A stretch of DNA of 64,000 bases, taken from positions 1 to 64,000 of the forward strand of contig NZ_JACCCU010000002.1 in the NCBI RefSeq assembly GCF_013410875.1, in the 5' to 3' direction. The translations under genes were made by a program, and so were the position numbers. Below, in pieces: positions 27,773 through 27,817 of the stretch. Each line of letters opens with the position of its first letter. Position 1 is the stretch's first letter. This DNA is from Tunturiibacter empetritectus. Lineage in GTDB: Bacteria; Acidobacteriota; Terriglobia; Terriglobales; Acidobacteriaceae. The notes beneath the pieces are model-generated. The model saw only the letters and a program-made list of their open reading frames with translations. It did not search any database and was not told where the DNA came from.

Positions 27773-27817
27773 CTGTTAACCGAAGGGTTGTAGGTTCGAG
27801 TCCTACCTCAGGAGCCA
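27773..27817 (+). other. 3' half of tRNA-Asn(GTT), probable attachment-site scar
   Basis: 27773-27779 reads CTGTTAA, an anticodon loop with anticodon GTT (Asn). It is followed by the 3' stem side, then a perfect T-arm (GTAGG, TTCGAGT, CCTAC at 27790-27806), an acceptor 3' strand CTCAGGA and the encoded GCCA ending at 27817. Upstream of 27773 there is no D-arm and the matching anticodon stem side is absent. This is what remains when an integrase inserts an element at a tRNA 3' end: the original 3' half is displaced to the far side. The element should lie to the left of it. Confidence 0.8.

Follow-up and report, generated by a model that had tools for sequence, protein, structure and literature searches.

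A genomic island at the 3' end of tRNA-Asn(GTT) in a soil acidobacterium, best read as a decayed ICE

Genomic islands that reside at tRNA genes have been catalogued in Islander (PMC4383910), and genes for tRNA-Asn are known integration hotspots for different islands, as described for the asparagine-tDNA islands of Klebsiella pneumoniae (PMC4891358) and for ICEKp (PMC6202445). A survey of acidobacterial genomes (PMC5900883) describes prophages and IS elements, and the word "conjugative" is absent from it. ICEs of Edaphobacter/Granulicella-type Acidobacteria are little described in the literature, as far as it can be searched. The locus considered here lies in the 5.07-Mb genome of a soil acidobacterium, which is assembled in five contigs, and the window analysed comprises 64,000 nucleotides, bases 1-64000 of contig C2. 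A tRNA-Asn fragment in this window is almost certainly the attR of a genomic island of at least 42.7 kb, for which the 3' end of tRNA-Asn(GTT) served a tyrosine integrase as the insertion site. The island probably derives from an ICE that would have lost its transfer genes.

The fragment at positions 27773-27817 reads CTGTTAACCGAAGGGTTGTAGGTTCGAGTCCTACCTCAGGAGCCA and consists of the anticodon loop with GTT, the 3' strand of the anticodon stem, the variable loop, a complete T-arm, the 3' acceptor strand, and CCA. Neither a D-arm nor a 5' acceptor strand precedes it, and no tRNA was called in the window by ARAGORN. Thus, the initial annotation, which had read these positions as a tRNA-Asn(GTT) 3' fragment with T-arm, 3' acceptor strand, and CCA but without a 5' half, is borne out by the sequence. 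A 21-base part of the fragment occurs only once in the window, and its expected count in shuffled sequence is 0.00. A 32-mer of the tRNA occurs exactly twice in the genome, in the window and on the same strand at C1:2894179-2894210, the latter copy lying inside the only intact tRNA-Asn(GTT) of the genome (C1:2894136-2894210). The repeat shared by both sites is an exact 47 bp in the same orientation (27773-27819, plus strand, and C1:2894166-2894212), which runs from the anticodon loop to the CCA plus TA and is two bases longer than 27773-27817. On both sides of the repeat, the two copies part at once.

The intact tRNA-Asn is located 14.9 kb before the right end of contig C1 (2,909,133 bp). At a distance of about 50 bp from it, a 417-aa tyrosine integrase with matches to PF00589 (E 1.1e-9) and Phage_int_M is encoded on the minus strand (C1:2894263-2895516). 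It is adjoined by an excisionase-like HTH gene, which was assigned by profile similarity only. Further inward follow a LysR regulator gene and, overlapping half a ParB-like gene, a VirB2-like ORF. The VirB2-like ORF matches T4SS_pilin with an E-value of 0.015, below the Pfam cut-off, and its assignment relies for the most part on the similarity of its DNA to that of a gene next to VirB3 and VirB4 in locus L080 (see below). This left-hand part of the island, with attL, integrase, and excisionase-like gene, occupies C1:2894213-2909133. A search for the partner tRNA leftwards inside the window had to be ruled out because the window begins at a contig end. The initial annotation had proposed that an element with an intact tRNA-Asn, an integrase, and a direct repeat lies to the left of the fragment; all three were found, the left half being located on C1 and not on the same contig. 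Elsewhere in this genome, five tyrosine-recombinase genes crowd into 7 kb at C1:742300-749169, and another integrase is located near the right end of C2 (C2:1241773-1242288).

A genome of the same species, G063, carries a single copy of the 45-mer of the fragment, and the repeat is found at positions 330764-330810 of its contig C1. This contig aligns to the left flank of the island up to position 330810 (96.7-97.9%), while window positions 27773-64000 align contiguously from 330764 onward with 99.05% identity over 36.25 kb. According to a base-level check, the overlap of these two alignments is exactly the 47-bp repeat: C1 of the present genome agrees with G063 over 359 bp to the left of the repeat and diverges right after its 47 bp, and the window agrees with G063 over 161 bp from the start of the repeat. 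Neither half of the island aligns in the 80 kb of G063 fetched around the site. Thus, G063 has the exact empty attB, and, as the flanks are contiguous in G063, the left flank on C1 and the right flank on C2 belong together. The change in gene content that the initial annotation had placed at 27773 is apparent from the same alignments, and its suggestions of integrase insertion at a tRNA 3' end and of a comparison with an island-free relative hold as well, the former on the grounds of the intact tRNA, the perfect same-orientation repeat, the adjacent tyrosine integrase, and the single-copy empty site. An occupied and an empty site within one species bound the acquired region exactly.

The extent of the island of at least 42.7 kb results from C1:2894166-2909133 (14,968 bp) and window positions 1-27772 (27,772 bp), to which the unassembled middle of an insertion sequence (IS) at the joint is added. 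The GC content of the island halves is 0.562 (C1) and 0.544 (window) compared with 0.592 and 0.573 in the left and right flanks, respectively. ORFs of at least 150 aa cover 0.70 and 0.73 of the halves and 0.86 of the right flank. The cargo in the window begins with a 520-aa protein lacking any Pfam or NCBIfam match (91-1653, minus strand). Pfam matches identify an O-methyltransferase (4692-5795, minus), an NAD(P)H-binding/NmrA-like protein (5788-6495, minus), an HxlR-type regulator (8665-9090, plus), an ArsR-type regulator with HTH_5 (9533-9862, plus), a GFO/IDH/MocA oxidoreductase (16384-17481, minus), an M61 peptidase (23876-25831, plus), and a flavodoxin-fold NAD(P)H oxidoreductase (26039-26827, minus). 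Besides these regulators and enzymes, the recognized cargo of the island includes a sensor kinase, a LytTR regulator, and a TetR regulator. The first gene of the right flank, outside the island, encodes a WecG/TagA/CpsF glycosyltransferase (28056-28814, minus) and is syntenic in G063, G025, and G032.

Pfam scans of 9 ORFs from the C1 half and 20 ORFs from the window half detected neither VirB4 nor a relaxase. What remains, an integrase, an excisionase-like gene, a LysR gene, and a VirB2-like relic in fusion with half a ParB, is best read as a decayed ICE. Integration almost certainly proceeded by recombination inside the 47-bp sequence, between the anticodon loop and a point just past the CCA, whereby the whole tRNA-Asn was regenerated at attL, the integrase-proximal end on C1, and the original 3' end displaced to 27773-27819. 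The ancestral ICE would subsequently have lost its transfer genes and gained the IS as well as assorted regulators and enzymes. In the simplest reading, the loss of transfer genes would be due to a deletion that runs from virB2 into parB.

The window half also contains the relic of a ParB-like C-terminus (1943-2317, plus), which repeats the 3' end of the ParB-like gene found on C1 (59% across 51 aa and 74% across 429 nt). The occurrence of ParB C-terminal sequence in both halves could be the trace of a second element, in which case the island would be a composite of at least two successive insertions at tRNA-Asn that lost its internal att copies. Such a history would be in line with the presence of at least three copies of the 45-mer in the genomes G034, G066, G079, and G083. 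It is nevertheless unlikely, as a third att copy is absent from the genome when up to 3 mismatches are allowed, and as the C1 part encodes only one integrase and none of the PF00589 matches of the genome falls into C2:1-27817.

The single island preferred here is cut in two by an assembly break, as the first base of the window is the end of a contig. The right end of C1 lies inside the left end of an IS, preceded by CTAG, and C2 starts inside the right end of an IS, which is followed by CTAG. The latter end comprises window positions 1-94 and has the inverted repeat end GGCGTGTTCACGCTA, and the matching left end closes C1. From its ends and its CTAG target, this IS is putatively IS5-like. The genome contains the left end of the IS at C1 right, C3 left, and C4 right, and its right end at C2 left, C2 right, and C1 left. 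As all of these are contig ends, it was three unresolved copies that broke the assembly. The right end of C1 is probably joined to the left end of C2 through the IS, as suggested by the IS ends and by synteny. The flanks of C4 right and C1 left adjoin in relatives. C3 aligns in G063 at position 1,503,016, on the same contig and in the same orientation as attB and 1.17 Mb beyond it, which fits the order C1-C2-C3. A join of C2 right with C3 left was not obtained via G063. The stretches compared from the last ~100 kb of C2 (C2:1195000-1241500; loci L090 and L091) match mostly contig C2 of G063, which is plasmid-like or mobile, and not the G063 chromosome.

Since C2 carries mutually inverted IS copies at its two ends, a flipped C2 would yield the same contigs, and the assembly cannot decide between the two arrangements. 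The right end of C1 could accordingly join the right end of C2 instead, with the att copies 1.27 Mb apart and in inverted order owing to an IS-IS inversion of C2. The oppositely oriented IS ends would permit this arrangement, but it is very unlikely in view of G063, where the C1 left flank passes through attB directly into the beginning of the C2 right flank, with C3 1.17 Mb further on, and in view of G025 and G032, which keep the same neighbours. A decayed tRNA pseudogene or an assembly artefact unrelated to integration, as the missing 5' half and the start of the window at a contig end might suggest, can practically be dismissed as an explanation of the fragment, because its 47 bp match the intact gene without a mismatch and break off abruptly at the anticodon loop, an integrase is located at the other copy, and the single-copy empty site of G063 joins exactly at the repeat.

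Insertions at the tRNA-Asn gene recur in the genus. The 45-mer is present in 57 of 62 genomes, 21 of which contain at least two copies, and for G003, G023, G029, and G033 the alignment of the second copy covers just a 3' fragment and not a whole tRNA. The three to five copies per genome in G066, G034, G083, and G079 suggest several or stacked insertions. G032 carries a different block of 40 kb at the same tRNA; it was rejected as an instance of the same island because it shares no DNA with it except about 75% over an integrase remnant. G025 was likewise rejected as an empty site, because the 2 kb between tRNA and wecG hold what appears by eye to be the C-terminal part of a different integrase joined to unrelated sequence. 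A 9.5-kb element is located between tRNA-Asn and its 3' fragment in G029 (L054; C24:189273-198843). Its integrase gene is located at the fragment end and not at that of the tRNA. The element further encodes a replication-initiation protein, a head maturation protease, and a major head protein, and no terminase, portal, or tail match was found among the five ORFs scanned; it is possibly a capsid-forming phage satellite. In a comparison of L013:12884-14210 with the window from 28053 onward, a 1.3-kb segment was found that consists of tRNA-Asn and the gene upstream of it. The orientation of this segment relative to wecG in G014 and G029 is inverted compared with the present genome, G025, G032, and G063.

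Fourteen relatives of the integrase were found, with identities of 66-96% and nearly all in acidobacterial records, and 13 of them are separated from tRNA-Asn or its 3' fragment by 15-190 bp. Several are adjoined by an excisionase-like gene and a LysR gene. VirB4 is encoded near the integrase in L080, L087, and L076, and L080 additionally contains VirB3 and a VirB9-type CagX. These elements indicate a common site of entry at tRNA-Asn for the mobile DNA of Edaphobacter/Granulicella-type Acidobacteria. The chances are about even that the 3' end of tRNA-Asn(GTT) is a genus-wide, possibly order-wide hotspot, used by one dedicated integrase lineage with an undescribed acidobacterial ICE family, of which the present island would be a decayed member, and by other integrases of small capsid-bearing elements.

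The island as such is well proven but ordinary; its anatomy is that of the textbook, and it alters nothing in the knowledge of tRNA integration. Its closest counterparts are the elements of Edaphobacter sp. RYN_3 (L080), Granulicella aggregans (L087), and related MAGs, which share the integrase subfamily (96% identity for L087), the excisionase-like and LysR genes, and the tRNA. In contrast to these, in which VirB4 and, in L080, also VirB3 and CagX/VirB9 are encoded, none of these proteins was seen among the scanned ORFs of the present island. Descent from an ICE and loss of self-transfer are probable. The islands of K. pneumoniae and ICEKp belong to another phylum and carry other cargo, and the likeness, integrase sequences left aside, lies in the tRNA-Asn site. 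With Islander-type islands, the present one has in common the tyrosine integrase, a target tRNA restored at one border with the displaced 3' fragment at the opposite one, an exact direct repeat, and a sister strain in which the site is empty; an IS divides it between two contigs, and it does not differ from them in principle.
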